NCBI GenBank assembly: GCA_947561395.2
Contig: OX387184.1
Span: 21,477,687-21,541,686, forward strand
Direction of reading: 5' to 3'
From: Buxus sempervirens
Lineage: Eukaryota; Streptophyta; Magnoliopsida; Buxales; Buxaceae
Length of the DNA stretch: 64,000 nucleotides
Shown piece after piece: positions 1 through 31,759 of the stretch; within the stretch, counting starts at the first letter, position 1; the number at the start of each line of letters is the position of its first letter. Below the pieces are notes generated by a model, which was not told where the DNA came from, did not search any database, and worked only from the letters and a program-made list of their open reading frames with translations. A program made the position numbers and the translations under genes.

Positions 1-2175
1 GTATGCGGGCACGGAGAAACTGCACATACTACGCGGTTTCGACCAAACCACATAATATGTGTAGATTTCTACCTGTGTTCTATAAATACCAAACCCAAGC
101 ACATGGCGTGGGTTGGTCATTTCTACCTGATTTTTCGCCATCTCCTCAGCTACTCCAGCCTCCGAATCACTTTGTTCTTCCTCTCCAAGTCCCTTAAACA
201 CCTCAAAGCCATCTTCTACTCACCTCAAGACCTCACCAACCTTTTCCCCTCTCATCATCCTAACAAAAGAAATCATCAAGAAGGAAGGAAGGATCTCTCT
301 TTGCTGTAAGGATCTCTCAAGGAGTTCAAGAGTGACCCAAGACACTTTTAACTTCAAGGTGAGCATTCAACTTCCTCTTGTACATGCTATGTTTCCTTCT
401 CATATGAATAAAAGAATGCTAGTCATGTTGTGAGCATCCTACCCTCTCCCCCATATCTTTTTTTCTCTATTACTGCTCCTCTTTTCTCCTCTTGTGGTCA
501 AGGTAAAGAAGACAACCAAGGGCCATGCCTCAAAGGCATGGCCATACGTGAGAAAGGGTGAGGATTGAGAGTGCTTTCAAGTCTTCCTCATTATATGTTA
601 ACTCTCCCCATAATAAATTGAGTCTAAGGGCTAAGATGTATAAGATTTGAAGTATGGAGGTTCGTAAAGGAAGTAAAATCCGGTTCCTTTCTCTTCCCCT
701 TATCCTTCTTCTGGATCCAATGTACCCCTTAACTCCCGATATCCCTTCCTGGTTTTCATTTGCTTCATTGATTTAGCTTATATGGGCTGACGTTTTGAAT
801 GATCAAGCATGTGTACACTAGGTCTACACACACCTCTTCACTGAAATATATTGAAATGGACTTCTCTAGTGCATGAACACGTCCCATGTATGCACACACA
901 TTGCTCACATCATGGTTTTTAAGCTTGATTTATATGTTTTGATAGTTGGTTGTATCATGCGTGGTTTGGCCGTCGACTCAAGTGACTAGGCTTTTTGGGC
1001 CTCCGGTTCTCTTCTTTCCTTAAGAAGTAGAGAGGCCTCACTAATGAAGCTTGAGGTGGAGTGTCCCTACTCCACCTGAGAGTCTTGATATTCCATTTCA
1101 AGCACAAAGGAAGAGGCCCCAAGCCTTCCTTCTTTTCATTATTCGGTTTAATTATCTAGGAAATAGGTTAAGTGGTGCTTAAAATCAATTCGGAAGCTTT
1201 CGTGGGTCGGTCGAATGACCCCCACCTGATATCAGACCCACCTAGGGTAGGGGGACCCCTGCTTCCCCCCTAAAAAATTGAAGTTTCTGTTATTTCAGGT
1301 GATGCCCGTACACACAGGGCAATCTGGCCTGATCCGTATGATATATACGGATCAAGCAAATCCGTATGTGTTATACGGATAGCTCACAGAATTGCAGAAT
1401 CTGACTTCTTTTGTAAATAAATTAGATTAAAACCAGTCTTAACCAACTTACCCTAAACCAACATGGTCTTTGAGTAATCAGAGACCTCTTCTACGGAATT
1501 GGGCCTATCCAAGGCCCAACAATGTCTCCTTGTAGGCCTTCCAACCGGGCCCACACCCGTCTTGCTTAACACAAGTCCATCCCCATGGTGGACTCTAAAG
1601 CAACTTGATTCTTTGGGCCTCCTCCAAGCCCAATGAATCCTTTTTAAAAATCTAAACCAATTAAATTCACTTTTGCATCCTCAAATAACATTCAAACCAA
1701 ATAAATCAAATCCAAAAGGCGATTATCCAACGTAACCCCCAAACAGGACTCAGGCTTTCTCTAAAGCCTAAACTAGCATTTCCGTGGGCCCTCCAATGAG
1801 GCCCACCACTTAGACTCAAATCACATGGTCTAAAAAGATAAAAATCAAAACAAAAGGGGACCTACACCATGCATGTGGTCCCCACCAAAGACCAAACCAA
1901 GTTAGCATGCTTGCTTAGGATGGGTGAGGTAAAAAATGAGTTGACTCGCTAAAAGCTAAACCAAGATGACCTGTGGGACCCGTCTTTTGATGGGGCAGAC
2001 TGGGGTGTCTACGGACTTCCCCGAACAGTAACCGGCCCCTTTCCAAGAATCTTAATGCCCAAATCACCTAATAGACATCCTTTAGGCATCTAGATGTTTG
2101 CCTGCACCCCATCAGGCAGTGGCAACTCCCACTTTCCCCCTCACATCGAGTGCGCCACGGGTCGACGTGCGCATA
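1..2175 (+). mobile_element. Long LTR, 5' part outside window (copy A)
   Basis: Equivalent to 44880-47049 of the complete copy at 44229-47049. It has a TATA-like TATAAATA at 81-88 preceded by a decayed quasi-palindrome at about 20-63. Two further palindromes with ATCCGTAT/ATACGGAT arms lie at 1331-1353 and 1360-1380. The end is followed by CTATC (2176-2180), matching the target duplication in copy B. No polyprotein coding is seen, so it is probably a solo LTR of a Ty3/gypsy-type element. The family is inferred only from LTR ends and length. Confidence 0.75.
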
Positions 2176-2283
2176 CTATCCATTTAACCCACTCCATTGC
2201 CATCCTTATACCCATTGCACACCCCTAGTTTTGGATCTAATGGGTGGGGAAAATAGGCTTATTTTTTCATCCAGTATTTTTTT

Positions 2284-2695
2284 GGGCAAATTACACTTAC
2301 CTCCCTTGAGGTATGACATAATTACACTTACCTCCCTTGGGGTTTCTGATATAACACTATCACCCCTTGATGTTTATGTGTGGGTCACACTAACACCCCC
2401 TCACTACACTTTCCGTCCAAAAAATAACGGCAGATCATTAAAAAATAAATAACTTTTGAATATATGACTAAAATTAATTTTCCAAAAATGTATGACTAAA
2501 TTAATTTTTAGTCATACATTCAAAAGTTATTTATTTTTTAATGATCTGCCGTTATTTTTTGGACGGAAAGTGTAGTGAGGGGGTGTTAGTGTGACCCACA
2601 CATAAACGTCAAAGGGTGACAGTGTTATATCAGAAACCCAAAGGGAGGTAAGTGTAATTATGTCATACCTCAAGGGAGGTAAGTGTAATTTACCC
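2284..2695. mobile_element. 412-bp foldback element (MULE-type MITE)
   Basis: The two halves are near-perfect inverted repeats of about 190-200 bp around a short AT-rich centre near 2490. The ends read GGGCAAATTACACTTACCTC and its complement. It is flanked by a 9-bp direct repeat TATTTTTTT (2275-2283 and 2696-2704), the target length typical of Mutator-like elements, though T-rich flanks make that less decisive. Copy B has it at 47158-47569 at the same site, so insertion preceded the duplication. It has no coding capacity, and a transcript would fold into a long hairpin. Confidence 0.8.
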
Positions 2696-3534
2696 TATTT
2701 TTTTTAGATTTTCGGTCCTACAGTATTTTCATAATGGTCTAATTCTCCCAATACCTTGTTTTAGTGGGACCTAGTTTAGGTTAATGATCTTTTTAAATGG
2801 GATGCACCGATCACAATTCACTAGTACACGAGTGCACTAGAAATTGGGTGCACCAGAATTTTCTTTATTGGGTATTTTAAATTCTTGATGTTCAGAATTT
2901 TATTTATTCTAGACGCCTCATACATTGTCCCAAGCATAATATTGTTAATGTCCGAATAGGCTATTATCTAAATCTCAAACAACATGTGTTTTTACATCTA
3001 GATAATCTATTCCAAACGTCCACATATTCTTTTTTGAGAATTTTTCAAAATTGGACGTTTTATTCTCTTCTAAATTTATTGGGTGATGAAAATATATTTT
3101 GCCTCATTGGATTTTGCAGACTTCCCAATCTTTTTTTCATTAAAGGAAATTCAAGGGGTGATCACACGACATACCTTCTTGGGATAATTTTTATCTTTTA
3201 TCCTAAAAGAGGCACCCATATTTTGGACTCCATCATATGTCCATATGGAATTTTTTTTAGGATAAAATCTCAATTTTGGACTCTGTCATACGTCTAGATT
3301 TATGCTCTTTTCCTTGGATGACAGCTTTCATTAAAAATGTTCCTTGGACATAACCTTAACATCCACATTTGGGATGATTTCCAGGCTTCTTTTCTTTGGA
3401 ATAATCTCATGTTTCAGACTTGTGAAAGTGTACTAAAATTTTGAGGTTTCCTATATTTGGGAACCAAAATTAGGATGTCTTTATCGATAAAGTATTTCAT
3501 CTGAATGGTGAAAAAAACCCTAAATAATCTAGTG

Positions 3535-5690: not shown

Positions 5691-7494
5691 ACACGTTTGA
5701 GTAACCCCTTTTACAGTTAAACCTTGTAAGAAATCTCAATCCCCCATTCTTCTTATAAGGGGTAATGGGGTGTGGGTGAGTGGGTTTTTTTTCTCTTTTT
5801 CTTTCTTTAATTTTTTTATGGGTATTTGAAAAAATCTACTCCATGAATCCTCATTTTTTGGTTATCTTTTGTGGGAAGAGAGAGAGCTTTGAATTGTGGG
5901 TCTTTGTTGGGTTCTCTGCTCTGTTTGGTTTTGAGTTGCAGAGGTCTGCGTTAAAGCACTAACGCAGTCCTCTGGTCAATGAATATCTCCTCTTACACGT
6001 GTTGATGTACATATGCCAAAATTGAAAGAAAACTACAGTCATTGAAGAAAAAGTCAATGTCTTTTTCTTTCCATTATTCCTTTTATAGTGCATATTTGAG
6101 AGTTGAACCATATTTAAACTTTTTAGTTACATTTATACCTTTCAGCCTGAATTATTAGGTTGAAATCAGAATTAACAACTTGCCTTTTATTTTTTGCTGT
6201 TCATTTTAGCAAGAAATTGAGATTATGTTTTAAGAATAATCCATTGTCCAAATACAAATAGCTGTAAGTAGTATGTATAAGCAAAGAAATGCATGCATAC
6301 CTCACCTGTAAAAATTGTCTTCTGTACCTCTGCCTTACAAAAGGGTTTATTATGGCAAATTCTTTGTGCTATGGTCGTGTAATGCCTTACAAAGACAATT
6401 ATGCCATTTTTAGACTGTTATGCTCTATAAGATCACCTAATATTTCATCTTTAAGTTAATTGATGTAAAATGCAAAAGGGTTTATTATGGCAAATTCTTT
6501 GTGCTATGGTCGTGTAATCCATCTGCCCTTTTTCCTTGTTACAATTCAATGTACCTTCTTTTGCCTTTTTCCCTTTTGGACAACAAGTTTCTTTAATTCT
6601 AGCTTCTATTTCATTGAACAGTTGCTTGTTTCCCTTGACTGTCTAGTGTCTACACTGTTGTTCTTTTGTTAGTCAATTTGGTTGTTGTTAGAAGAGGATT
6701 AAGTTTTCCCATTCCAGTCTATCTTACCATAAGTCAATTTTGATCTCACTGTAACACTAATTAATCAATTCTTTTCTTGAAAATTGATTCTTTATTTCTT
6801 TTGAAGGATTTGCAAAATCATATCAGCCCTCTTTCCAACTAAGCTTACCTAATTTTTTTGTAGAATGGGAAAAGACACTGCAGCTTATTGGCATTGTTGG
6901 CCTTGGTCAGGTGTGAGTTCTTTATTATCTGTCTGAAGTATGTTAATATGATGTACCAGTTGGTTAGAATGTTTTCAAGGTCTACAGTTTATAAACTGCT
7001 CTATGGAGTTCAAAGTAGTTTCTATAGTGAAGTTATCTACTTGATAAATTCCACTAGGTTTTTTCTAGTGCCAGTTAAGACATAGTCAGATGATGGCAAT
7101 CATTTGATATTTAGCTTTCATTTAAATTATCAAAGAAATATATTGAATGGTCTAAGAAAACTACATGGGAAAGTGATTATCATATAATTAGGTTAGTTTT
7201 CAGATTAGCCGTCTTTTAAATGGTCATCCCAAAACCTTCTTTCGGTCATGCCCACTAGTGTTTCATTGGTAAGGATGTTCTTTCAATATAGCATATCGTC
7301 ACAGCTACTTCATTTTCTTGACAGAAATTGCTACTTTATTGCATAGATTTTTATACTTTTTTTAGTGTGAAATAATTATGTCACTCTATTTTTTTTTCAT
7401 CTTTAAATTCTCTTTTGTGCTTTTGATGAATCATTTTAGAACCTTTTCAGTTGCTCAGATTTATTCTGAAGTAAAAATAAGTGTTTTGAGCATG
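5690..7494 (+). other. Intron-like or relic transcribed region
   Basis: T-rich, intron-like sequence follows the donor near 5684. One possible small exon lies at about 6864-6911 (acceptor-like TTTGTAG upstream, donor-like CAG|GTGTGAG downstream). It would read EWEKTLQLIGIVGLGQ, which I do not recognise. Copy B keeps it with one substitution. No longer coding frame is present, so this may be a gene remnant cut by the LTR at 7500 or a non-coding transcript. Confidence 0.25.
6332..6393 (+). repeat. Templated insertion private to copy A
   Basis: A 42-bp patch (6342-6383) is an exact copy of 6477-6518 about 135 bp downstream. It is bracketed by a duplicated 10-mer GCCTTACAAA (6332-6341, 6384-6393). 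Copy B has a single 10-mer and no patch. This is the signature of break repair copying from a nearby template. Confidence 0.85.
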
Positions 7495-9852
7495 ATATTT
7501 GTGCGCACCTGATTTCGGTCGCACGACGAGGCGCATGCAAATTGATGCGTGTCTCGGGATTTGTTTGGAGTTGTCACTGCCTGATGGGGTGCAGGCAGAC
7601 ACCTGGGTGCCTAAGTTTGTCTATTAGGGCTTGGTCTGCGGCTTGAGATTCTAAGTAGGTTCTCGGTTGCGGTCTGTGGAAGTCCGTAGACACCCCAGTC
7701 CACCCCGTCGAATGACGGGTCCCATGGTTTCCCTGGTTTGAGTCAACCTTTGGTCTCTCACTCACCCGATTCCTAATCCAGCATTCAAATTTGGTTAAGT
7801 CTGGCGGGACCGCCAAAGTGGTGTGGGTCCCTTTACTTGATTTTATCTTCTTATTATTGAACGAAGTGAGTCTGATTGGGTGGGCCCCGTTGGAAGGTCC
7901 ACGGATCCCTTGGTGGGCCTAAGTCTAAACCTGAGAGGCCCTTTGGGCTTTGGTTCAATGAATTGATTTTATTCAAACTTCAAGTTTTATTATTAAATGG
8001 ACTTTCATGCCAATGTGGGCAGGGATTGCTTTGTGGGCCCCACGATGGATGCCAAGTAGTTTTGATTATCTTTCTTAATCTGTGCCAAAGTGGGCCAGGA
8101 TTTGGGCTTGGGGCCCTTTACCTGGGCTTGGACTTGAAAGCCCAAGTCTTCATGAGTTAGGGTTTGGAAACCCTAAAATTGGTTCGATTTAATGGGCTTT
8201 AGCGGGCCCGATCGGCCCTACCCGTGGTCTCGGCCAAACCATGCCTAAATCTAAGCAACATGCTACTGAAACTAGGCTTGGGTGGGCCTCCAATGGTCCG
8301 GCCCACTCAATTACTTTGATTGTCTTCATTTAGCAGAAATGGGTTTGTCGGGCTTGGTGGGCCCCATTGGAAGGCCCACCGGAAATCAATTTAGATCGGA
8401 TCGGTCCAAGGTCCACCTTGGGTTTCCGGGTCACCCGGAAACCCTACTGGTTCGCCCGGATTGATCAAACAAACCAAAAAAACAACACAAGATCAGAAAA
8501 TGGCAAGAAAAAGCAATCTGACAGTGTAGCCGGCCTAAGATGTATGTTACACACAGGTCTTAGTGTATCTGGCATCTTTTGCCGGCTACGAATACAGCTC
8601 TGTTGATCCGACCTGAGTTGCCGGATAAACATACACAAGCTGTTTTGTGATTTTTGCATTGGGGTTGGGTTTTTAGGCTTCTTGGGGAGTTCCAGTAGCT
8701 GCGGGGGCCCCTGTGTGGGCCCACCATGGTTTTGTGGAGGGGGATTACCCCCTCTCTTTGCCCTTTTTAGGGGGTTTTGCATCATGGGAAAGGAGGAGAA
8801 GGCATAGGGAGTGGCTCTCTCCCATTTGGATTGCCATCTTTCATGAAACAGGGACCAAGCCGTCCCTGTTTTGGCCTCACTTAGTCCATCTACCAACAAG
8901 TGAACAAGACCAAAGGATAGATGACCAAGCAACTAAGCATACGCCAAATTCTACTCACTAACTCATCTAACAGCAAACTAAACACACAAAGGGGGTCACA
9001 TGGATCTTAAGAAAGTAAAAAGACACTATTCAAAACATTGTGCATACAAACACATGCTTGCTTAGGCGTGCTTCCCAAAAGAGAATACCCACGGAGCAAC
9101 CAACCAATTTCCTATCATGGCATGTAAGAGTTGGTCATGGGGTATAGACAAAGGGGGTAGGAACATGCTGGTGGGATTTTCGTGCACCTATACATGCATG
9201 CTACGTGTAACCCGCATGTTAGAGGCATTCATCATCAGAAAACAAGATATAGAAAAGAAAGAAATAAGGGAAAGGGCATTAGGGGGTTACATTAGGGATA
9301 CATTGGATGGGTTCTTAAAAGGGAACATGCTCCCACCCCAAAATGCAATCAAACATGTAATATAATAGCCGGTAACACCAAAAAAATATGGAGAAAGCCC
9401 TCATCCTTTGGAGACTTCCATATTAGAGAGACAAAGGAGAAAACATATGGAAACTAAACATGAGAATGGACTTATGCTAAGGAAAGCAAAATACTCTAAA
9501 AAGCCTTCATTTTTGTATATGTATGAACAAAGATGATAAGAGTCAATACCTGAGGGTTTTAGAACCCTTTTTGTTGAGTATGGAGCTCCTCTTGAAGCCA
9601 AACAGCAGCAGGACAGTCCTCCTCCAGCATCAACAGCCACCAACACTCTCTTTGGTTGAGTGGAAGTCAAGAAGATGAGAGAAAGTATGGGTAGGATGGG
9701 CTTAGGACTACGCTTGAGGGGCTTAGGGAGCAAGGACGGGTGAGAGCGGGTGGTTTCGTACCTGGGATAGTGGAGAAGAAGAAGTGGAAATAGCCCAAAA
9801 GAAGCTAACCCCCGAAATGGGGCTGGTGTTGCCTTTTTATAGAAACATTTTT

Positions 9853-9955
9853 GTATCCGGCATTTAATGTCGGATACACTACACTTCCTTTGTATCCGGT
9901 ATATTATGTCGGATACACTGCACCTCCTTTGTATCCGGCATATTATATCGGATAC
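9853..9955. repeat. Three 25-bp quasi-palindromes at exact 39-bp period
   Basis: Palindromes start at 9853, 9892 and 9931. Each has an 11-bp arm like GTATCCGGCAT, a 3-bp centre and the complementary arm like ATGTCGGATAC. The first lies 11 bp from the minus-strand TATA box. Copy B starts are 53206, 53245 and 53284. Confidence 0.9.
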
Positions 9956-10034
9956 AAACACAATCATTTCCAAAATTTAATTTTTTGCGCGTATCTGTCA
10001 GCGAATCCGCGCGAATCTTACTGGCAAATCTCTT

Positions 10035-10098
10035 GTATCCAGCAATATATGTCGGATATGAATTAAAGCATGTGTATCCGACATATTTGATAAGATAC
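10035..10098. repeat. Second palindrome pair, same 39-bp period
   Basis: Two more 25-bp palindromes of the GTATCC/GGATAC type start at 10035 and 10074. Copy B equivalents start at 53387 and 53426. They lie about 80 bp beyond the first cluster. Confidence 0.85.
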
Positions 10099-10883
10099 AA
10101 ATCAAAAAAATTACGGATTTGCCCCTCGACTTGACCAATTTGACTGATTCGACCGATTTGACACTTTTGGATATCTGTAGATTGCCCCTTGTGAATTTTG
10201 GTTTAGTCCCTGAGATATTTAGCAAGTTTTTTATTTTTAAAGATTGCCCCCAGAGATATTTTGCTGCGTTTGCTGCCACGTGTGCAGTTCTTTTGCCACG
10301 TGTGCAGTTTCCGGCTTTGCTGCTCGGGAACTTCAACTGCTCATATCATCTTCATACGGACTCCGATTTGGGCAAACTCAATTGCGTTAGAACCATATCG
10401 GAGTCCTATATCCATTGGGATAGGGCTAAGCACCTGGCACGGGGTTCGGCAAAAGGTCAACTTTCGGCTCACCCTCAAGTTTGACCGGCCCATAGATCCT
10501 TCATCCGGACTCCGATTCTAGCAAACTCAGTTGCGTTGGAATTGTGTCGAGATTTTCTATCCATTGAGATAAATCAAGGTGGCCAATTATCACTTGATTA
10601 AAAAGTCAACTTTTGTCCCCTTAGGGTTTGACTTTTTAGCCGGGTTTTGCATTTCCGGCTCTTCCAGGAGCGCAAAAATGAGGTGCTTACAATATTGTTA
10701 AGTGAACTTCTCACATCAATGGTCTATCCATGGATAAGAATGTGTTTTTCTATTTCTCTTTTTGTTTTGTTAGGGTGGGGGGTTGGGGTTTTAATTATAA
10801 GCCTTTTTATGAGCTAAATCTCAAAAAGAATTTAGGGCATGCCATGTTTTTCTTATGTGCCCTTGTATTGATTTTGTTCAATG

Positions 10884-14108: not shown

Positions 14109-14462
14109 TGTGACATCTTGGCTGTCTGAGTGGGCGGCTGTGATGTGGGCGGGGTGAGAGACCTAGGCGAGCTACCACAGTGGCGAGCTACCAGGCGAGG
14201 ATGTGAATATGGTTGGGATCCCACAACGCTCGGGGATGCTATAAGTAGTCTTAAGACCCCCAAATTAGCAAGAGGCCTTTTAAGGAGCAACACGGGACTA
14301 AATCCCCTGGGAACCCTAAAGTTAAGCGTGCTCGTGTGGGAGCACTGCTAGGATGGGTGACCCCTGGGAAGTTTTCTCGTGTTATCCTTAAGAACAAATC
14401 CGTGAGGGCCCGTGGGCCCAGAGCGGACAATATCTTGCTGGTTATGGGTCTGGGGCGTTACA
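14109..14462 (+). mobile_element. Cassandra-like solo LTR carrying a 5S rRNA-like region
   Basis: 354 bp, TGTGACATC...GGGGCGTTACA, flanked by GCGGG (14104-14108, 14463-14467). Positions about 14290-14391 resemble plant 5S rRNA, with the hallmark GTTAAGCGTGCT and GGATGGGTGACC blocks that include the internal pol III promoter. Cassandra TRIM elements are known for 5S-derived LTRs of this size. Copy B has the empty site (GGCAGGG near 56827), so insertion followed the duplication. One LTR only, so solo. Confidence 0.9.
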
Positions 14463-16207
14463 GCGGGGTTGCAAATGTTGGATTTGTGTGTGAAGATTTT
14501 AGCAATTACTTGCGTATAAAAAATAAGATACAGATGCAAAAGGGGGATAGTGGTGCAATTACAGCTTACTTTCAGAAGAAGCTTTGTGAGGATAGGGCAT
14601 TTTTTCATGCCATTGACATGGATGAAGATGACATGATAACCAATATATTTTGGGCAAACGGGCAAATGGTTACAGACTATCATTATTTTGGAGATGTTGT
14701 AAGCTTTGATATGACATTCAAGACAAACATTGAAAACCGGCCACTTGCATTGTTCGTAGGATTGAATCATCATAGATAGACAGTTGTTTTCGGTGTTGCC
14801 CTTCTATATGAGGAAAGCAGTGATGCATTTTCTTGGTTGTTCAAGACTTTTGTGAATTGTATGCATGGAAAAGAGTCACAAACAATTATAACAAATCAAG
14901 ATCAAGCAATAGGAAAAGCCATTAATTCTGTCTTGCCTCGAACAATTCACCGCAATTGTATTTGGAATTTGTATCAAAATGCTGCAAAGCATCTTAGTTC
15001 TATATTTCACATTTGCTAAAGCTTTTAAATATTGCATATACAAGTGTGAAAATGATTCCGAGTTTGAAGAGGCATGGCGTGACATGATTGAGAGGTTTAA
15101 TCTTTTTTAAAATGAGTGGTTGGAAGCAAAGTATAAGGAAAGGGAGAAGTCGTCATTAGCGTATGGTTGAAACCATTTTTGTGCTGATATGCTTAGTACC
15201 CAGGTATCAGAGAGCATGAATGCATCCATAAAAAATGCGTTGAATCGACAGCAAAGTATGGTGTGGCTTTTGAACCAAATTAATGTTGTGGTGGGGAGGC
15301 ATCGATATAATGAGTAGGCAAATGATGGCAACATGATGCTGAAGAGGAAAGAACCCCATCTTTTCCAACCACTCTTTAGCCATGCATGCAAGTTGTACAC
15401 TCCGGCAGTTTACGAAAAGCTTAAGAAGGAAGCAATAAACATTTGGTCATTCAAGAGTCAAGACTCTTCAAAAACCAGCGATGTCGAGATCTTAAAGATT
15501 GTTAAGAAGGCTGAAAGGATCTAGCAGGAGCACACAGTAATATATAACAGTGTAGTTGGAGATGTGCAATGCAGCAGTAAGAAGTTTGAATTTGCAGGTA
15601 TTTTGTGTAGGCATATATTCTTGATTTATTTTTTTAAGGATGTTACTAAGATCCCAGAAAAGTACATCCTAAAAAAGTGGAGAATAGACGCGAAGGATGG
15701 ATTACAATGCATCACGTCACAGCGTGCACCGAGTGAAAGTAATGAGATGGGTAAAATGTCCACTCAATATTCTTATGTTTGTTCTACTCTGATTCAAATC
15801 GCCTCTAAATCAACTGCATGCCAAAAAGCAACCGACTATGTTATGGAGATGGCAGGAAAGATGAATGAGGTAGTTGAACAAATTGTCAAAGGTACTGTTT
15901 TTCAAGAGCTTCCAAAGGAGGACGAAACTTCGAGAATGGCTGTATCAATTGATAATGAGCAAACTTTAAATGGTGAAGGAAGATCTATCTATGAGGTCCA
16001 TACCGATGTTGCAGATATTAATGTGGTTGAGGATGACGTGATTGAAGAGGTTGGAAGTTGTGTAAATTAGCAAACATTTGAATCTTAAGAGCTTTGTGGG
16101 GAACAGCATCTTGATGCAATGGCGGGATATTATGATGAAGTCACCACTTCACAAAAGCGCATTGAAAATGCAAAAGGTGTCAAAGTGAAGGAAAGAGCCA
16201 AGCGTGG

Positions 16208-20192: not shown

Positions 20193-20951
20193 TAATGATC
20201 TCTCTGATTAAAGGCTAATTCAGACCAACAAGGGACCAAATTCGAGGAAATACAAGGTTAATTTGCTTGGTGCAGCTTAAGTATTAGCCTCTGTCATAAA
20301 CTAGATGAAACAAAGAATCTCATCTTCGGCGACATTGTGTTACTCACACTTCGTTGAACTTTGAAACAAAACTCTAATTATCACCCAAAACCCAAAAAGA
20401 ATCCCTCAACAAATTGAGCAAGAAACAAACAAATAAGGACTACCAAAAAGATTCCCAACTCCTGATGTACAGGAGGTTTTTGGATCATGAACAAGAAACA
20501 AGTAAATGATACTTGGGAAATATCCAATCATCTCCCCTGATAAAAGTTTTATCTAACGATGACTATTTTCCCCATTTTTCACCTTTAATTAGAAACGAAT
20601 GAATTTCTATCCATGAAGAAGGAGATCAATACAGAACTGGATAAAAATAAAAGGAGATTAGTTGAGCAATAACCACAACGAACCAAACTTTAGCAAAACC
20701 ATCAAATAAGTATATACCAGACCATTATAAATCTGAGAATAGAAAGCTTACATATCCAGGACCCTCTGGCTCATTAGTGATTTAGAGTCACCTCAAATTT
20801 GGTGAAAGGGCACCAATTTCATTGGACAATCGGATACTTAGAGGACCTGTGAAACTGGAATCAAAGGACCTGCGAACACTGGCTCTTGAAATAATAAAAG
20901 CGGAACTAAATCATCAATAAACCCTAATAAAGAAAGCTAAAGAAAACTTAT

Positions 20952-21224
20952 TGATGAAAATAGAAGAATTCATATCTTGAGCAATAATCCTTGCTATATA
21001 TTTTGTATCTTTCATGGGAGTATTACTTTACAATTTATAGTATCTCTCCTAACATGAATAAAGAAAGAAGCTATACAATCTGGAAACATTCCACAGAAGA
21101 TCTACAGCTGTACAATCAGTTAAGTAACACTTCAAAATAGATCCTACAATTAAGGAACCAATTGTGTAATCAGTTAAAGAAGTAAATCTCCAGATCCTAC
21201 AATTAAGGAACTAAATCTTCAACA
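20952..21224 (-). repeat. Copia 3' LTR
   Basis: 273 bp. In element sense it begins TGTTGAAGATTTAG and ends TTTTCATCA. It pairs with 31359-31659. Confidence 0.9.
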
Positions 21225-21423
21225 CTCCCCCTCAAGTTGGTGCATAGATATCACACATGCCCAACTTGTCTACTAATTTTGAGAAGATTCGATTTGAAAC
21301 GGCTTTAGTAAGAAGATCAGCCAACTGATCCTCTGATATGATCTTAGGTAACTCCAATATACCCTCATCAAGCTTCTCTTTAATAAAGAATCTGTCCACC
21401 TCAACATGTTTTGTACGATCATG

Positions 21424-21885
21424 TTAGACTGGATTGTGGGCAATATCACATGCAGCTTTATTGTCACAATACAATTGAATTGGTTGCATAGATGAGTACC
21501 CCAAATCTTGCAAAAGAAGTTTCAGCCACAATGCTTCACAAAGTGCAAGGGCCATACCTCTGAATTCGGTTTCTGCACTTGAACGAGCAACAACATTTTG
21601 TTTCTTGCTTCTCCATGTAACAAGGTTACCACCCACAAACGTAAAGTAACCAAAAGTCGATCGCCTATCATCTTTTGCTCCAGCCCAATCAGCATCAGTA
21701 TAGGCATTGATGTTGCAACAGTCTGTATTTTTAGTGAACAGAACCCCTTTTCCAGGTACAGATTTTAAATACCTCAAGATGCGCATGACTGCATTCATAT
21801 ATTGCTCTCCAGGATCATGCATAAATTGACTAACAATACTCAATGCATAAACAAGATCCAGTCTTGTATATGCTAAGTACATCAA
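21424..21885 (-). pseudogene. Copia RNase H region
   Basis: Contains the Copia RNase H signature YTDADWAG, then FVGGNLVTWRSKKQ, SSAETEFRGMA and a C-terminal YCDNKAA. Part of the 20952-31659 element. Confidence 0.9.
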
Positions 21886-22029
21886 TCTCCCTACAAGTTT
21901 CTAGTATCTCACTTTATCAGTTGGAACTTGGTCTGACTCAACATACAACTTCAAGCCTTCTTCGACCGGTATATCAACTGGTTGACATGCTGACATTCCA
22001 GTTTCCTGTAATAGGTCCAAGGTATACTT

Positions 22030-22626
22030 TCACTGTGACAGAAATATCCCTTTCTTGGATCTAGATACTTCGATCCCAAGAAAATATTTTAAGGAACCAA
22101 GGTCCTTCATTTCGAATTCTTTGGATAAGTACTCTTGTAGTGCCTTCTTTTCTTCTGGATCATTCCCTGTGACTACCATATCATCTACATATATAATGAG
22201 TGCAGTGATCTTACCTTGTTGCCTTTTTAGAAACAATGTATGATCTGAATTGCTTTGATGATATCCAAAGCCTATCATGGCTTTTGTAAACCTTCTAAAC
22301 CATGCTCTTGGGGATTGTTTCAATCCGTACAATGATTTCTTCAATCTGCACACCTTCTGACTATGTTTTGCTAGTGCCATGCAACCTAGTGGAAGATCCA
22401 TATAAACTTCTTCAGATAATTCTCCATGTTGAAAGGCATTCTTCACATCAAATTGTTGCAATGGCCACTCTAGGTTTGCAGGTAAAGACAACAACACTTG
22501 AATAGTGTTGATTTTAGCTCCAGGTGCAAATGTCTCTGTGTAGTCGATCCCATAGGTTTGGGTGTACCCTTTTGCCACAAGTCTTGCTTTATAACGCTCA
22601 ACCATGCCATCTGCCTTGTACTTCAC
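22030..22626 (-). pseudogene. Copia reverse transcriptase region
   Basis: Shows KARLVAKGYTQ, the DVKNAF catalytic block, KSLYGLKQSPRAW and the YVDDM active-site block. Part of the 20952-31659 element, whose pol is split by the nested LTRs. Confidence 0.92.
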
Positions 22627-22827
22627 AATTTAAATCCATCAACATCCCACTGGCTTCTTCCCTGGTAGACAATCAACAAGTTCCCAAGTTTTATTTTTTT
22701 ACGAGGTGTGCGCACCTAAATCTAGATCGCACACGTGGGATTTGTGCGTGCCTCGGGACTTTCGGAGTCGCCACTGCCTGAGAGGTGCAGGCAGACACAG
22801 GGATGGCCTATTCGGGTCTAAGTCTGG

Positions 22828-25800
22828 TGTGCGCGTGGTCGCACCAGAAAATTCGGAGTTTGGATTCGCCACTGCCTGATGGGGTGCAGGCAGACACCTG
22901 GGTGCCTAGGTTTTTCTATTAAGGCTTGGTCTGCGGCTAGAGATTCTAAGAAAATTCTCGGTTGTGGTCTGGGGAAGTCCGTAGACACCCCAGTCCACCC
23001 TGTCGAATGACGAGTCCCACCTTGGTTTTGAGTCGATTTGGTTTCTCACCCAATTCCTAATCCAGCATGCACATTGGTTGAGTCTGGCGGGACCGCCTGA
23101 ATGGTGTGGGTCCCTTTACTTGATTTTATTTCCTTAACTTAGAGTGATCTGAGTCTGATCAGGCGTGCCCTGTTGGAAGGCCCGCGGATTCCTTGATGGG
23201 CTTGGCTAAGCCTACATGTTCCCTGGTGGGCCTCAGTCTATCTTGAGAGACCCTTTGGATTCTGGTCCAATGAATTGATTTTATTTGGAATTTCAGTTTG
23301 GGAATTAAGTGATTTTCATGCCAAGTGGGCCGGGATTGCTTTGTGGGCCCCATTGGTGGGCCTCACAGTGGTGGCCAAGTGACTTTGAGTTATTTTGATT
23401 AGTTTTTGCCAAAATGGACCAGGCCTTGGACTTGGGGCCCTTAGCCTGGAAATTAGGGTTTTAACCCTTCAAATTCGGTCAATGGGCTTGGCGGGCCCGA
23501 TAGGCCCTACCCGCAGTCTCGGCCAAACCATGTCTAAATCTAAGCGTGCTTCCAAAATTGGGCTTTGGTTAAGCCTCTGGTGGTATGGCTCACTCAATTG
23601 ATTTATTTACTGATTTAAAGCAAAGTGAGTTAGTCGGGCTCGGTGGGCCCCGTTGGAAGGCTCACTGGAAATCAAATTGAACCAGGCTGGTCCATGGCCC
23701 ATCTTGGGTTTCCGGTTAACCAGGAAACCCTTCTGGTTCATCCAGATTGATCAAAAATATTAGGGAAATAGCACAAAATCATGAAATAGCAAAAATGGCA
23801 TTCTGGCAGTGTAGCCGACCTGAGGTGTCGGCTACACATAACATTTCTTGTAGCCGTCAACTTAGGTCGGCTACAAACAGGACCTTGCTGATCCAACCTG
23901 AGTGGTCGGATCAGCACAGAAAGTGGTTTTTTTGGGTTTCGCCAATGGGCTTGCGTTCTTAGACTTCTTGGGAGGTTCTAGTAGTCTTGTGGGCCCCTGT
24001 GTGGGCCCACAGTGGTTCAGATGAAAGCCACTTGGCTTCTCCCAAAAGGGGGCTTCAAGACCAAGCTATGGGAGATCAATGGGGGCTCCATCTTTCTTTA
24101 TTTTGGGTAAATCCAGCAGAGGAACAGAGGTCATGTACCTCTGTTCTGGTTGTTTATGGCCAAGATAAACAGCAATCAAGACGAACAATCAAAGAAAGCA
24201 AAAAAGAAATCATTTAAAGCATGCTTCACTTGGGCACATTCCGAATCAAGATGTGCATTGTGTGTGCTTATTGCGTCTAAGAACCAAGACTGATCTGTGG
24301 GCATGCAAAATCAATGTAAATGATAGGACACATTAAGAATCTAAAGATATTCCTAGCAAGCAAACATGCACATACACCTAAAGCCCGTGTCTAAACCAAG
24401 TGGGGAGGTTTCATGTGGTCGAAAACAGCAGCCAAGGTAGGGAGAAAACCATGGTAAATCATACGAGAACCATAACCGAAGTTACATGCACACGATCCCA
24501 AAAGAAACCATAACCGGCTCATCAAACAAATGAGCATAGTATGCGTACGCACATGGAAGTAAACTAGCATGCATGATCTTAAAAATGCAACTAAAGAAAA
24601 CTAGCATGTATCACCTAAGACCTTTCACATGGCAGAATCCGTACGGCTTATTCTCATGGCCTAAACAAATACCTAAAGAAGGGAGAAGAAGGGGGATTAC
24701 GTAGGGATACAAGGGACAATCAACCATGAGGAAACATGCTTCCTCTTGAAAGAACAACGCATGCAAATAAGAAGGAAAACAGCAAGTACACCCCAAAAGT
24801 GTACAAAAGAAGCCTCTCACCCTCCCGTAGTGACATTCATACACTCATCCTTACCTCTGGTTACTACCATGCCATGAAATGGGGGCAAAAACACATACAA
24901 ACCACTTTGAAAAGTTGCCTTGGGGCATGGGAGAAACCAAACTCATGAAACATCATGAAATGCACTCATTCTTATATATGTAATGTAAAACATGTTAGGA
25001 AACAAATCCTGAGGTTTTACAACCCTTTTTGGGATGTGTTGGCACCTCCTTGCAACAAGGAAAGTAGCTGGAGCTCCTCCTTTGGCCACCAACAGCAGCT
25101 CCTCTCTTCTTGTTTGGGTGAAAAATGAAGAAGAAGAAAAAAGGAAAGTGGGGGTAGAATAGGCAAAAAAGAAGTGTTTAGGGTTTGGGGAGAAAGCTGG
25201 GGGGAAAAGGAAGGGCTTTCGTGCCTGGAACAATGGGGGGAAGACGTGGAAGCAAGCCAAGAAGAGCCAACCCCCGAAATGGAGCTGCTGTTGCCTTTTT
25301 ATAGACAACTTTTTGTATCCGGCATTTAATGTCGGATACACTATACCTCCTTTGTATCCGACATTTTATGTTGGATACACTGAACTTCCTTTGTATCCGA
25401 CATAAAATGTTGGATACAAACACAATTATTTCAAAAATTCAATTTTCTACGCGTATCTGTCAGCGAATCACCCGCAAATCTCGCGGGCAAATCTCTTGTA
25501 TCCGACAATATATGTCGGATATGAAGAAAAGCATGTGTATCCGACATATATGGTCGGATACAAGCAAGATATTTACAGATTTGCCCCTCGACTTGACCGA
25601 TTTGACCAATTCGACCGATTTGACACTTTGGGATATCTGCAGATTGCCCGCTGCGAATTTTGGTTTAGTCCCTGAGATATTTGACAAGTTTTGGATATTT
25701 AAAGATTGCCCCCTGAGATATTTTGCTGCGTTTGTAGCCACGTGTGCAGTTCTTTTGCCACGTGTGCAGCTTTTGGGTTTTGCTGCTCGGAAACTTCAAC

Positions 25801-26177
25801 AGCTCATATCTTCTTCATCTGGACTCCGATTTGGGCAAACTCAATTGCATTAGAACCGTATCGGAGTCCTCTATCCATTGGGATAAGATTAAGCAATTGA
25901 TTCGGGGTTTAGCAGAAATTCAACTTTCGGCTCCCCCTCAAGTTTGACCGGCTCATATCTTCTTCATCCGGACTCCAATTTGAGCAAACTCAGTTGCGTT
26001 AGAATCTTGTCGGAATTTCCTAATCATTAGGAAGAAGTATGGTGGCCACATTGCACTTGATCAAAAAGTCAACTTTTGTCCCCTCAAGGTTTGACTTTTC
26101 TGCTGTCTTTTAGCACTTTTTTTTTTGTTTTCTTCTTTTTTTTTCTTTTTGGTTTGATCAAAATTTGGGGGCTTACA
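22828..26177 (-). mobile_element. Nested LTR N2 inside N1
   Basis: 3.35 kb, TGTGCGCG...GGGCTTACA, with target repeats TCTGG (22823-22827) and TCTAG (26178-26182), one mismatch. The minus-strand TATA (TATAAAAAGG, 25294-25303) lies 11 bp from the first of five 25-bp palindromes. This is the same arrangement as the 7500-10691 LTR, of which it is a diverged relative. Confidence 0.82.
25315..25561. repeat. Five 25-bp palindromes in N2, 39-bp phased
   Basis: Starts at 25315, 25354 and 25393 (period 39), then 25498 and 25537 (period 39). Arms are of the GTATCCGACAT/ATGTCGGATAC type. Cluster spacing equals that of 9853-10098. Confidence 0.9.
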
Positions 26178-26792
26178 TCTAGTCTGCGGCTTATTAGAGA
26201 TCTAGCTAAGTCCTCGGTTACGTCCAAGGAAGTTCGAAGACACCCCGGCCCGTGCCCGTCGATTTGACAGGTCCCTTGGGTCTCCCTGGTTTTTTAGTCA
26301 AGTTCACCCTTTCTAGACCAGCATACCACTTTTTAGGTTTGACGAGACCTTCTGATGGTATGGGCCCCTTTTTATTTCATTTTGTATCTTTTTATTTAAG
26401 TGAGGTGGGTCGGATACGGGCCCCGTTGGAAGGTCCGTAGGATGCCAAAATTGGACTTGGGCTAGGGGCCCAATAGAGTTATTGGGTAACCCCTTCTTGG
26501 TTTGGATTTGTTTATTGAATTAATTCAACATTTTAAGGGCTTGGATTTGGCCCAATAGCACTTAAGCAAAGGCCTTGGGCCCGTTTGTTGAAAACGGGCC
26601 TGGTTTAGGCCAGTCAAAATGTGGGTCCCACTGGTGGGCCCAGGAGGTCTTGATGGGCCCAATAAGGCCCATGGTCTACAAATGGGTTTAGGATAGCCCA
26701 AACAACTTTACAAGGTTGGGTCAAGCCGGTTCGGGTCGGATTCGGGTCCAACCGGGTCAAAAAAGTTAATTTTTTAAGTTATTTTAAAATTG

Positions 26793-26895
26793 ACCGCATT
26801 TGTTATACGGTTTTGTCTGAACCGTATATACAATACGGTTCAGGCTGGACCGCATAGCAAATACGGACATGCCTGGACCGTACAACAAGTACGGT
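26793..26895. repeat. Palindrome cluster 1 in N1
   Basis: Four palindromes at 26793-26811, 26820-26840, 26850-26866 and 26877-26895 (spacing 27, 30, 27). Arms are of the CCGTAT/ATACGG type with AT-rich centres. Confidence 0.85.
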
Positions 26896-27679
26896 TTCTG
26901 TCCGATTTTGCATTTTCATGCCGATTCCAGTCGGGATCAATTTGGTTGTCTTTATGGAGCTGTCCGGTGACTTCTGTTGAGGTTCCCAGCTTTGTTACAT
27001 AAGTCCAAATGCTCCATCTTCAATCCATATCTCTTCATTTTCTTTATATTCCTCTAAGGAATTCATCTTCCTTTCTTTTTGTCCATTTACGCAGCTTGGG
27101 AGCATGTAATATTACGAGGGAAGGGAGAGAGGGAAAAAAGGATTTAGGGGATACATTTGGAGACTTAGAAGAGGACATCACCCTCTTAAAATATGCACAT
27201 AAAACAAGTTAACCAAATCATGTTATCTTATATGTTTTCTTTTACTTTAAAAGCCTACTTTCCCTTCCTTTCGCGTAGAGATACCCATTTTTCATGGGAT
27301 CTCTCATGCCATGCAAAACATAATAAACAAGTTAGAGATAATGTGACATAAGCAAAGAGAAAAGAAAAAGTCTAAAGATTTAAAACAAAAGGATTTTCAT
27401 ATATGTTAAGTAAAAGTTTACCGAGAATGCTACCGTACAACTACCTTCTTGTTTTGGCGTGTTGTGGTTCTCCGTGAGATTTCGGTAGCGCTTCCGCACT
27501 CCCGTTGATTTCCCAAAGTAGACTTGAAAAGGGGTTCTCCTACTGTGGGTGGGAAAGGATTGAAGACAAGGAGAAAGGTTGTGATCTAGGGGTATTTTGG
27601 GAATATTTTTAGGCTGACAAGGTTTCAACATAGTAGGGACGTGGCAAAACACGTAGAAGGAGAGGGGAAGGCTTGGGGG

Positions 27680-27847
27680 GACCGTATAGCAAATGCGGTC
27701 AAGGCACGACTGTATATCAAATACGGTCGCGCCGCCCTCGTGAGCGAATCGCCAGCTATCCCTCCATACGGAACGCATGTCCCGCTTCTAGAATCCATGA
27801 CTGTATTTACTATACGGTCATGTCTTGCCCGTATAGTAAATACGGTC
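27680..27847. repeat. Palindrome cluster 2 in N1
   Basis: Four 21-bp palindromes at 27680, 27708, 27799 and 27827, in two pairs each spaced 28 bp. Arms are of the GACCGTAT/ATACGGTC type. Confidence 0.85.
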
Positions 27848-29090
27848 AGGCACGTTTTTAAAGTGCCCGGATTTGAGAAATTTTATTAAATTTGATTTAT
27901 TTAAAGATTTTATTCGATTTTTTTTATTATTTTATTAAAAAATCTAAGATTTCTCATTATTAAAATATTAAAATATTAAGATATCTTTTATTAAATGCTC
28001 TTTTTATTTATTTTATTCATTTTATCAATTTATTTGGCTTCTTGCAGCTGTTTTTTGCCACATGGGCAGTTTTCTTGAAACTTCAACTGCCCATAACTTT
28101 TCCTCCGGTGTCTGATTTTAGCAAATTTAGTGTCGTTGGAATCGGCTCAGAACCCACTATCCACTGGGATCAATTTGGGCAGCTACATTGGGGTCGAGCA
28201 AAAATTCAACTTTTCACTCTCCAAAAGATTGACCGGTTCATAACTTTCTCATCCGGACTCCGATTCCAGCAAATTTAATTGCGTTAGAACCGTGTCGGAG
28301 TGCTCTTTTCAATGAGATGAAGTTTGATGGACAAATTTGTTTGAATCAAAAAGTCAATTTTTTTACCCCCTCAGGGTTTGACTTTTCATTTTTCTTCATT
28401 TTAGGGGTGCTAACACAAGGCATTCATCTCTTCATTCATAGCAACTTTCCATCTTGGGTCAGCTAAGGCTTCCTGCACACTGTTAGGAATAGGTACAGTA
28501 GATAATTGATTCACAAATGATTGATTTGATTCAGACAAATTTTTGTAAGACACATAATGACTCATGGGATATTTAACTTTACTAGAAAGTTCAGGTTCAT
28601 ATGTGGGTTTAGGAATACCTCTGGTTTGACGCTATGGCAGCTGTTTTATTGGTGGTTGAGACTCTCTATCAGGAACATCCTCAGTAGATGATTGGTGTGG
28701 TATATTGACGAGAGGCTCGCACTCGAATAAGAATGGACTGATGCCTTCTGATTGTGTTATTCCTTCTATTTCACGGATGCCTTCTGGTTGTGTTGCTCCT
28801 TCAGTTCCTGGCCATTCATCACCATTCAAATCCAGTTCAGCAATATTTTCTGTTCTTTCTGTGACAGAAGGTTCTGTTGCAACAGGTGTTGCAACATCGT
28901 TAGCACAGATCTCTCCAGCAGCAGTTTCTTCAGAGATCTGATATTCATACTGTAATAAATCATAATCTAGAGTCTGAATTTCCTTCTGGTACTCCCCCTG
29001 AAGTTCAGACTCAGATAAGAAATACATTTCATTTTCATGGAAAACCACATCCATTGTGATAAACATGCGTCTAGTTGGAGGATGATAACA

Positions 29091-29738
29091 TCAGTACCCC
29101 TTTTGGTGTATAGCATATCCAACAAAAACACATCGCAACGCTCGAGGAGCTAACTTGTTGCATTGATGTTTATAGAGATGGACAAAAGCTACACAACCAA
29201 AGACATGAGGGGGTAAATTTGGGACGCTTGTTGCACCAACAGCATTAGTATGAACTTGGAGTGATGTCCGGAAGTCAATAGAGCAAGAGGGAACTCTATT
29301 GATCAAATATGCTGCAGAAGTAAGTGCTTCTCCCCAATAGGATAATGGCATATAGGCTGCGATCAAGGAGGCACAAACAACTTCCAACAAATGTCAATTT
29401 TTTCACTCTGCAACTCCATTCTGTTGGGGTGTATTGGAACAAGTAGTTTGATGGATAGTGCCATGGGCTTGCAAAAACTGTTGAAGTTCAGAACTTTGAT
29501 ATTCTCCACCATTGTCATTCCGAAGAATCTTGACTTCTGCATTGTACTGAGTTTCAATCATTTTATGAAAATTTTGAAATAATGAGTTCACTTCACCTTT
29601 GGATTGCATTAAATACAACCAAGTCATCCTTGTACAATCATCAATAAAAGTAACAAACCAACGAGATCCTCCCAAAGTTGTGACTTTAGATGGCCCCCAG
29701 ACATCAGAATGTATCACCATAAAAGGAAGTGGACTCAA
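29091..29738 (-). pseudogene. Copia integrase region
   Basis: Contains the integrase core HSDVWGP, TFIDDCTR, DNGGEY and HQTTCSNTPQQNGVAE. Upstream, 29742-30107 holds the GAG-pre-integrase HRRLGHA motif. Part of the 20952-31659 element. Confidence 0.92.
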
Positions 29739-30302
29739 TGTTTAACTCAATGAAAATGGAGTTTGATGGCTTTTCGCCATTTCACATACATCACAATGGA
29801 AACTAGAAACATCCACTTTTGTAAATAAACTAGAAAATAATTTCCTTAAATAACCAAATGAAGCATGCCCAAGACGTCTATGCCATATCCAGATTTCAGA
29901 CATCTTCTTCTCCCCCTCATAGCCATTTACTGTGAAGATTTGTTGTAACTTGTTTGAGATTCTTGACACCAAATCCAGGTAGTATAGCTTGCCTCGTCTA
30001 ATACCACAACCAATCGTCTGCTTTGTTTGGATGTCCTTAAAAACACAACAATCAGGCCAAAAAATCACAACACAAGATAAGACTGTGGTTATTTGAGAAA
30101 TTGACAATAGGTTATATTATAAAGATGGGACAACCAAAACAGAAACTAGATTCAAAGTATCAGTGAGGGTCAAGGATCCTTCCCCAATAACTGGGGTAGT
30201 GTTACCATTGGCAGTGGAAACAATTTTCTATGAGGAGGGTTTAAGAAGTTTTACCTATCTAGAATCAAATATCATATGATCTATAGCACCAGAATCAATT
30301 AT

Positions 30303-31085: not shown

Positions 31086-31358
31086 TATCCATCATTTCAC
31101 TTTCTGATTTTCAGCATACCATCTTTCATAGCCATCTTCAAATTCTGTAGGTGGCTTTGTCTTACAACGAATATAAGAGAGTTTCTCTCTTAAGAATAAT
31201 TCCAGCATTAAAAATACCTTCAGATTGAACAACAACAGGAACCGATCTTGTTTAAGATGGTTCTGACATGTTGTTGGAGGAAGAAGCCATCACGTTTGTG
31301 TTGTTGGACGTGGTGGTTCAACAACGAGCATAACGATCTGAACCAGGCTTTGATACCA

Positions 31359-31659
31359 TGATGAAAATAGAAGAATTCAGATTGATGAAAATAGAAGAAT
31401 TCAGATCTGGAGCAATAATCCTTGCTAGCTATATATTTCGTATCTTTCATGGGAGTATTACTTTACAATTTATAAGATCTCTCCTAACATGAATAAAGAA
31501 AGAAGCTATACAATCTGGAAACATTCCAGAGAAGATCTATAGCGGTACAATCAATTAGGTAACACTTCAAAATAGATCCTACAATTAAGGAACCAATTGT
31601 GTAATCGGTTAAAGAAGTAAATCTCCAGATCCTACAATTAAGGAACTAAATCTTCAACA
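31359..31659 (-). repeat. Copia 5' LTR
   Basis: 301 bp. It is longer than the 3' LTR mainly because of a 24-bp tandem duplication at its inner end (31359-31405). The primer-binding site lies directly beside it at about 31343-31358. Confidence 0.9.
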
Positions 31660-31759
31660 CTTATAAGTTCCAGAGCAAGTATCAAAACCGGAATCAAAGG
31701 ACCTGCAAACACCGGCTCTTGAAATAATAAAAGGGGAACTAAGAAAAAAAACCCCTTTC

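Follow-up and report, generated by a model that had tools for sequence, protein, structure and literature searches.

The closest described counterpart of the arrays reported here is the "RM box" of the Sireviruses, Ty1/copia retrotransposons whose LTRs carry multiple copies of CGG-CCG palindromes just upstream of the TATA box (Bousios et al. 2010, PMC2829016). In the sections of that paper available to us there are 8–32 RMs per element, with more copies beside the envelope-like gene, and the authors call the RM box Sirevirus-specific, within a Ty1/copia data set (PMC2829016). In maize, the palindromes of Sireviruses are hotspots for small RNAs (Bousios et al. 2016, as cited in PMC5311732 and PMC10760457), and Ty3 elements generally lack an obvious structure peak, according to the accessible text of PMC10760457. 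Within Ty3/gypsy, the available sections of a recent survey distinguish the Tat clade by its two RNase H (RH) domains, give the placing of the second between RH and integrase (INT) as the Ogre/Retand arrangement, and report a plant mobile domain (PMD) in extra ORFs of 57% of the Ogre elements surveyed (Neumann et al. 2019, PMC6317226).

The arrays of Buxus sempervirens described here resemble RMs in being repeated CGG/CCG palindromes upstream of a TATA box, with copies beside an accessory gene, and in retaining a conserved motif amid divergent surroundings; the Citrus RM (AATCCGGCTWRCCGGATT) and our class I units also have ATCCGG...CCGGAT in common (PMC2829016, in part). They differ in that the carriers are Ty3/gypsy Tat rather than Ty1/copia elements, in that the triplets are ordered CCG...CGG and separated by 11 bases (N11) rather than mostly CGG...CCG separated by 4–7 (Table 3 of PMC2829016), and in that most array-bearing LTRs have about five units, with a constant period and a near-constant distance to the TATA box, rather than 8–32 per element. 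A palindrome-rich, variable cis region of the LTR with strong predicted structure is shared with the maize Sireviruses. The carriers share with Ogre/Tat elements the second RNase H between RH and INT and the occurrence of PMD in extra ORFs, but the parts of PMC6317226 available to us mention no palindromic promoter array. A preliminary description of this locus knew of no described system with such a layout; this stands for Tat elements, since we found no report of palindrome arrays in gypsy/Tat LTRs in the open-licence literature, but not in general, as palindromic CGG-CCG arrays upstream of TATA have been known in Sireviruses since 2010 (PMC2829016). The arrays are a real and very regular feature; they extend Sirevirus-type palindrome arrays to another lineage, in which N11 is a new invariant.

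Arrays in the window

The window, that is, the whole stretch of DNA that was analysed, comprises 64,000 nucleotides of the B. sempervirens genome (GCA_947561395.2, contig OX387184.1). The LTRs N1, N2 and N3 and their arrays are as follows.

7500–10691, minus strand: N1, a solo LTR (TGTAAGCACC...GGTGCGCACA) of a Ty3/gypsy Tat-type family, about 3.2 kb, as read from the sequence
7495–7499 and 10692–10696: target-site duplication (TSD) of N1, ATATT
9834–9841, minus strand: TATA box of the N1 LTR promoter (TATAAAAA), 23.5 bp from the nearest unit centre
9852–9878, 9891–9917 and 9930–9956, minus strand: proximal cluster of N1, three palindromic CCG-N11-CGG units, period 39
10034–10060 and 10073–10099, minus strand: distal cluster of N1, two degenerate units, period 39
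8525–8630, minus strand: second, decayed cluster of N1 in the transcribed R/U5, CCG/CTG starts at 8530, 8569 and 8608, period 39
22828–26177, minus strand: N2, a solo LTR of N1's family that interrupts the tail of N3, TSD TCTGG/TCTAG (4/5)
25314–25563, minus strand: U3 array of N2, units at 25314, 25353, 25392 and at 25497, 25536, period 39
23810–23914, minus strand: R/U5 cluster of N2, TGTAGCCG-type units, CCG-N11-CGG at 23815, 23854 and 23893, period 39
26178–28415, minus strand: main part of N3, a related solo LTR (TGTTAGCACC) of the period-28 class, with its tail at 22708–22827
26794–26894, minus strand: R/U5 cluster of N3, CCG-N11-CGG at 26794, 26822, 26850 and 26878, period 28
27682–27845, minus strand: U3 units of N3, GACCGTAT type, exact dyads at 27682 and 27829
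42167–42272, minus strand: array of the outer LTR (which starts TGTAGACACC at 42384), three units, TATA box at 42010–42017
53205–53452, minus strand: copy of the N1 array in a duplicated segment

The five quasi-palindromes that had been noted in N1 are real, although as 27-mers they start one base ahead of the 25-mers first reported (9852, 9891, 9930, 10034 and 10073). Both the exact 39-bp period within each cluster and the 11 bp between the first unit and the minus-strand TATA box were confirmed. The whole array occupies 9852–10099 within the U3, with a distance of 104 bp between the clusters. The two distal units have the degenerate plus-strand right arms CGGATATG and AAGATACA, the units of the array register as tandem repeats (period 39, 2.7 copies, 89% match), and in the R/U5 cluster an exact dyad is present at 8608 only. 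Throughout the window CCG-N11-CGG occurs 37 times, which is more than chance would give: all other gaps between 0 and 45 yield 0–11 occurrences, and five dinucleotide shuffles of the window yield 0–5 at N11.

N2 had been described as an unrelated insertion that repeats the geometry of N1. Its five unit starts hold (25315, 25354, 25393, 25498 and 25537 as 25-mers), but it is not unrelated, being 85.7% identical to N1 over 888 bp. The third unit of its R/U5 cluster (23893) carries one mismatch. N3, which has the TSD CGAGG/CAAGG (4/5), itself sits within a Ty1/copia element (RVT_2 at 22030–22629, rve at 29403–29741); this element occupies 20919–31661, has LTRs of about 300 bp and is interrupted by N3 with N2 nested inside it. 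The period of the R/U5 clusters of N1, N2 and N3 matches that of each LTR's own U3 array (39 or 28), and a TATA box is absent at the expected place. In the outer LTR three units do follow one another at 39–40 bp (42167, 42207 and 42246, spaced 40 then 39 bp), as had been noted, but the layout is not that of N1: the array belongs to another class and its TATA box is about 163 bp, not 11 bp, from the nearest unit. Four more CCG-N11-CGG-like units with a period of 28 (two exact, two with one mismatch) lie at 41243–41343.

Near 53205 the N1 array recurs as a duplicate, because the window from 1 to 21.7 kb (1–21730) recurs near-colinearly at 44.9–64 kb (44880–64000), with 97.5–98.6% identity in the main pieces. 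This is a large duplication of tandem type, offset 42–45 kb downstream, in which the N1 LTR was copied along. Also present in both copies are an inverted repeat (2284–2695, with 198-nt arms 16 nt apart and 95% complementary; counterpart at 47158–47569) and MULE transposase-like frames (14255–14779 and 56644–58435; PF10551, with SWIM in the second). Two open frames at 33375–34696 match a sugar transporter (PF00083) and are probably exons of a host gene.

Array classes in a sample of LTRs

All sequences come from one genome, and genome-wide counts cover 676.5 Mb in 247 contigs. A pattern for the junction of polypurine tract (PPT) and 3' LTR matched 4,411 sites (control 1). From the first 100 matches listed we picked 40 U3s by type of LTR end, so that the sample is stratified rather than random; selection was independent of the array, and all 40 lie on contig C1. 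Sorted by eye, they fall into class I (TATCCG arms, period 39) with 10 members, class II (CCCGTA arms, period 28) with 11, class III (GACCGCA type) and class IV (TATCCG arms and period 39, the array lying 180 bp from TATA) with two each, and a group of 15 that are array-free. As 15 of the 40 sampled LTRs lack the array, it is not indispensable. Adding L039, L048, L049, N1 and N2 brought classes I and II to 13 LTRs each. The LTRs L001–L008 gave no match to the U3 query and were left out of further analysis, while L009–L038 were left out of the rates given below because they had been picked by similarity within the array itself.

Most array-bearing LTRs have about five units in a 2+3 layout. A free scan of class I gave 39.0 for 36 of 37 within-cluster distances, the other being 78, with one unit lost, and class II yielded 34 within-cluster distances of 28.0; units far upstream in seven class I LTRs and between the clusters in three class II LTRs were set aside as chance. 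In class I, L050 has an extra unit, displaced by 12 bp and attributed to chance; in class II, the scan did not detect one of the distal units of L078. The gap between the clusters measures 103–105 in class I and 100–111 in class II. From the centre of the last unit to the TATA box the distance is 23.5–25.5 bp in 26 of 29 LTRs of classes I–III (class I 12/13, class II 12/13, class III 2/2), the exceptions being L050, L067 and N3, in the last of which no TATA box was found.

CCG-N11-CGG as the conserved unit

Among the half-sites TATCCG, CCCGTA, GACCGCA and AGCCG, CCG alone is common, and 11 bases separate the triplets in every class. The conserved unit is the CCG-N11-CGG dyad, not a 25-bp palindrome or a 39-bp period; the period that had first drawn attention is real, but it may be 39 or 28 and is not the invariant. 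CCG-N11-CGG occurs 45 times in the 10 sampled class I U3s, 47 times in the 11 of class II, twice in the two of class III (both in one LTR), five times in the two of class IV and twice in the 15 array-free LTRs; shuffles average 0.13 per LTR. A gap of N37 rivals N11 in class I (49 occurrences) and class IV (seven), and N39 reaches 29 in class II. The N37 excess in classes I and IV follows from CCGG arms combined with the 39-bp period; N37 and N39 alike arise between neighbouring units and are particular to one period or the other, so that 11 is the sole peak that classes I, II and IV have in common.

Genome-wide, CCG-Nk-CGG was found 163,369 times with N11, 43,280 times with N10 and 40,613 times with N12, an excess of about 120,000 dyads at N11. 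The reversed control GGC-Nk-GCC shows no peak at 11 (143,005, 126,325 and 105,655 for k of 10, 11 and 12); its counts exceed those of CCG-N10-CGG and CCG-N12-CGG because it lacks CpG. The dyad lies at most 30 bp upstream of CTATAAA 6,674 times with N11 but only 76 times with N10 (reversed controls 318 and 307). Counted as TTTATAG followed by a dyad at 0–30 bp, these are 3,397+3,277 sites for N11 (control 167+151) and 37+39 for N10 (control 156+151). In a hand count of the 100 matches listed, the gap between TATA and dyad was 15 in 68, 14 in 16, 16 in six, 17 in four and elsewhere in six, so that 94 of these 100 fall at 14–17. Spacer letters differ among class I, class II and the antisense modules described below, and the distance to TATA is therefore kept without sequence. 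Exact arm pairs 0–30 bp apart number 20,413 for class I (control 97) and 7,962 for class II (control 121); for class I, the gap was 16 in 69 of the 100 matches listed, 29 in 26 and 15 in five by hand count, the gap of 29 reflecting a half-site shifted by 13. Helical phasing was considered and rejected: 39 and 28 bp correspond to 3.7 and 2.7 turns, which are not whole numbers, so the units do not lie on one face of the DNA.

Conservation and turnover

Evolutionary rates were compared in 12 of the 13 class I LTRs (L050, with no unit beside TATA, was left out) and in 10 of the 13 class II LTRs (L067, L075 and L088 were left out); unit positions were partly imposed in this comparison, and an unconstrained scan gave matching distances. 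In class I, mean pairwise identity is 0.87–0.97 in the outer arms, 0.52–0.66 inside the units, 0.58–0.65 in the spacers, all of which are 16 bp long, and 0.70 in the stretch between the clusters. Two 200-bp stretches of upstream U3, which contain 11 and 13 gap intervals, have identities of 0.80–0.85. Over 100 bp downstream of the array, identity is 0.65, with nine gap intervals, a divergence like that of the spacers. The arms are thus the slowest-evolving part, with CpG kept in 111 of 120, and the inner bases and spacers evolve faster than the upstream U3 and much like the downstream stretch. Class II is young and less diverged (arms 0.93–1.00, inner bases 0.74–0.97, spacers 0.88–1.00, upstream U3 0.85–0.88).

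It had been proposed that spacing is kept while the intervening bases drift, and class I bears this out, its spacers having fallen to 58–65% identity with no change in length. Two simpler possibilities, that the arms evolve at the rate of their flanks and that regular spacing merely reflects recent descent, do not fit class I: the arms are 87–97% identical, against 80–85% upstream and 65% downstream, and the spacing persists despite the divergence of the spacers. Descent nevertheless plays a part. The U3s of classes I and II are 70–75% identical over their first 360–400 bp or so, and the alignment ends before the array, whereas that of two class I LTRs with N1 and L039 runs through it. Because the two classes align outside the array only, the array sequence has turned over while N11, the 2+3 layout and the distance to TATA stayed; because the classes share an ancestor, the conserved geometry is partly a matter of descent.

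The carrier elements

By their sequence, the carriers of the arrays are Ty3/gypsy Tat elements of an Ogre-like, very abundant family. The LTR start TGTAAGCACC has 10,942 copies genome-wide (reversed control 346), and the LTR/PBS junction GTGCGCACA-N5-GCGACTCTGCTGGGG was found at 1,698 sites with at most two mismatches (control 0). One copy of the family with both LTRs (L039 and L040, about 3.2 kb each and 9.96 kb apart, 96% alike over the 3.1 kb compared) is a non-autonomous class I element, in which a gypsy-type gag (Retrotrans_gag) is present and pol was not found in the scanned frames; tandem repeats lie upstream of the gag frame, at 5683–6330 of L039. Five stretches about 4.5 kb downstream of LTR/PBS junctions were taken and the frames of four scanned, which revealed gag (Retrotrans_gag, Ty3_capsid) in three (L042, L044 and L045). 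For pol, we scanned the next 5 kb of two stretches with long open frames: L046 has RVT_1, RT_RNaseH, RVT_3, Integrase_H2C2 and rve in this order in one frame (3–3218), and L047 has the same order spread over four pieces. These carriers therefore combine a gypsy-type gag with the order RT, RH, second RH and INT of Tat elements. Membership in the Sireviruses was ruled out both by the order of pol, with RVT_1 and INT after RT rather than RVT_2 and INT before RT, and by the primer-binding site, as the junction is not CA-ATTGG-TATCAGAGC.

The LTRs of both pol carriers belong to class II. As none of the class I copies scanned had pol, N1 is placed by U3 similarity and shared junctions and not by genes of its own; the U3s of N1 and of the class II pol carriers are 74–75% identical over about 300 bp. 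The frequent, though not universal, Ogre trait of PMD in an extra ORF is also present. A 498-aa PMD ORF precedes gag in a class II carrier (L107, 1271–2764; E 1.8e-22), and a class IV element (L106) has an antisense PMD ORF (E 5.2e-10), making two of the three carriers scanned; PMD was not found in the scanned pieces of the class I copy L039.

Internal arrays and the antisense PMD module

The coordinates of the arm-pair matches suggest elements of about 20 kb on contig C1 that have the array in the LTR and in three further places, one of which may be R/U5. We examined the internal arrays of one such element (L090–L093). One of them runs in the opposite direction, with four units followed by a TATA box and then by an antisense ORF, of which the next piece matches PMD. 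This TATA box is 24.5 bp from the nearest unit (62.5 from the chain minus a 38-bp step). Among the 100 TATA-dyad matches listed, 21 start with TTTATAGCAT, like the antisense module, by hand count. We consider this putative PMD promoter the best single argument for the array as promoter machinery. Against it, the arrays of L091 and L093 in the same element, like the R/U5 clusters of N1, N2 and N3, have no TATA box at the expected place.

The antisense gene of Grande and Retand elements is said to have a promoter of its own, going by the title of a cited study. As in our element, the antisense accessory ORF of Grande/Retand lies between pol and the 3' LTR, but its common domain is TRP28 in the available portion of PMC11963269, whereas here it is PMD and the promoter carries the palindrome module of the LTR.

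Possible role of the array

In order to account for these observations, we propose that the array is an upstream part of the LTR promoter and a candidate binding array for a symmetric dimeric protein, to which we give a probability of roughly 0.7. Upstream promoter sites for a dimeric DNA-binding protein had already been suggested in the preliminary description, and the constancy of N11 and of the distance to TATA makes this the best-supported reading. Each unit would be the site of a dimer that reads one CCG triplet per half, exactly 11 bp apart, the TATA box being preceded by a distal pair of sites and a proximal group of three, the last centred about 24 bp away. At that distance, we propose, bound dimers could help to set up transcription. 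Binding by a protein is our inference, as is the view that this protein is dimeric, serves as an activator and not a repressor, and comes from the host instead of the element. Against this reading, the class IV array is 163–180 bp from TATA, and the R/U5 clusters are found downstream of the promoter.

Sites of Gal4 type, CGG-N11-CCG, likewise have two triplets 11 bp apart that are read by a dimer; the order here is CCG-N11-CGG, and to our knowledge fungal zinc-cluster factors are not expected in plants. We know of no factor that binds CCG-N11-CGG, and found no report of such a site in the open-licence literature. The ARF (TGTCGG) and SBP (CCGTAC) cores were rejected because they are not constant across units, and LBD proteins as the binding factor found no support in the portion of the open-licence literature available to us.

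The U3 palindromes might instead act as RNA hairpins, at the 3' end of the element's RNA or in antisense, in packaging, in 3' processing or as double-stranded RNA for small-RNA silencing, and a fold needed in the RNA had been the other suggestion for N1. The array does fold well. Against shuffles, N1 has a z of -7.0 in sense and -10.4 in antisense. Among 28 hand-chosen U3s (22 with arrays, six without), a 110-nt window fell below -40 kcal/mol, the cut-off for miRNA-like structure in maize (PMC10760457, in part), in 21 of 22 with arrays against one of six without. Small RNAs may therefore arise from this stretch, as they do from the Sirevirus palindromes of maize. However, the minimum-free-energy fold of the N1 sense strand pairs different units with one another, only in antisense does one unit make a local hairpin, and an Rfam search over 7400–10800 gave no match. 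Covariation was assessed in those units that had the length typical of their class and lay one or two periods from another unit. The inner positions of class I covary symmetrically: the pairing observed at positions 10 and 11 was reached by none of 1,000 shuffles and that at positions 9 and 13 by 10 and five, while position 12 goes in the opposite direction. When each LTR contributes a single unit, pairing is 0.61, compared with 0.50 after shuffling, and a sliding partner gives 0.13–0.35; such covariation exceeds what a site of two triplets needs. Class II shows little covariation (0.765 against 0.745 shuffled). On the class I sense strand, G-U is slightly ahead of A-C in the arms alone (11 against 7) but not inside (15 against 22), in arms and inner pairs together (26 against 29) or over all 13 pair positions (34 against 51). 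This absence of an overall G-U preference agrees better with a symmetric protein site, or with templated mutation from arm to arm, than with RNA pairing, which is not favoured despite the strong folding and would also leave the constant N11 and the fixed distance to TATA unexplained; we consider a role as RNA hairpins improbable.

That the arrays have no function, having arisen by tandem duplication and descent with their palindromy maintained by quasipalindrome-templated repair or errors of reverse transcription, seems to us very improbable. The units are tandem in N1, the classes are related LTRs, and the symmetric inner covariation, of which class II has little, could be mutational in origin. 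But the spacers of 12 class I LTRs have diverged without change in length next to 24 gap intervals in 400 bp of upstream U3, all but one of the distances in the free scan are 39.0 and the exception is twice that, N11 has outlasted the replacement of both flanks and period, and spacers of differing sequence keep 14–15 bp to TATA in 84 of the 100 matches listed. A version of the dimer reading, and overlapping with it in probability, is that the sites are read by a product of the element itself, such as the PMD protein, in a private loop of transactivation or anti-silencing. A PMD ORF precedes gag in the class II carrier, that of the class IV element lies in antisense downstream of an array and TATA box of its own, and the motif varies by class and is mostly shared within one U3, as would be expected of a class-specific factor. 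Against this, a PDB sequence search with the PMD protein found no relative, we know of no DNA-binding activity of PMD, and the class I pieces, from one of only three carriers checked, are without it; an element-encoded reader is unlikely in our view. Hardly less doubtful is a code running through the lineage, in which the dyad array of Tat/Ogre elements, often 24 bp from TATA, would serve a dimeric regulator dedicated to them, perhaps the PMD protein that they encode, and drive both the genomic RNA and an antisense PMD loop, the CCG-CGG theme of the Sireviruses being independent. As the flanks diverge between classes and N11 and the distance to TATA are fixed, the classes might then be insulated from each other's regulator.

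A promoter array bound by dimers is the likely mechanism, judged from these sequence comparisons. If so, most of the roughly 120,000 excess dyads would be putative binding sites spread by one retrotransposon lineage, and N11 set against N10 and N12 would offer a spacing-specific probe for a protein that activates these elements or makes them targets of silencing. The palindrome story of the Sireviruses would extend to the other LTR superfamily, in which the maize survey saw no obvious structure peak, and dyad plus TATA would be a simple signature of such promoters, including the hidden promoter of an antisense accessory gene.

Comparison with Sirevirus-type LTRs

The Sirevirus-type junction occurs at 499 exact sites in the genome, and of the 100 listed we sampled 12 with 1.6 kb upstream, recognised by the junction alone. 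The N11 dyad is absent from 10 of the 11 stretches scanned. The remaining one (L099, 71–334) has five such dyads, irregularly spaced and with AACCG arms; these are part of an adjoining LTR on the opposite strand, which starts TGTAGACACC and matches L090, and so belong to the Tat-type superfamily; they represent a further class of CCG-N11-CGG dyad. Three of the 12 Sirevirus-junction LTRs (L095, L099 and L102) contain a different palindrome, GAACGTTCGC(T/C)GAACGTTC, and copies of this GAACGTTCGCTGAACGTTC type are 73 bp apart in L099 and 62 bp apart in L102.
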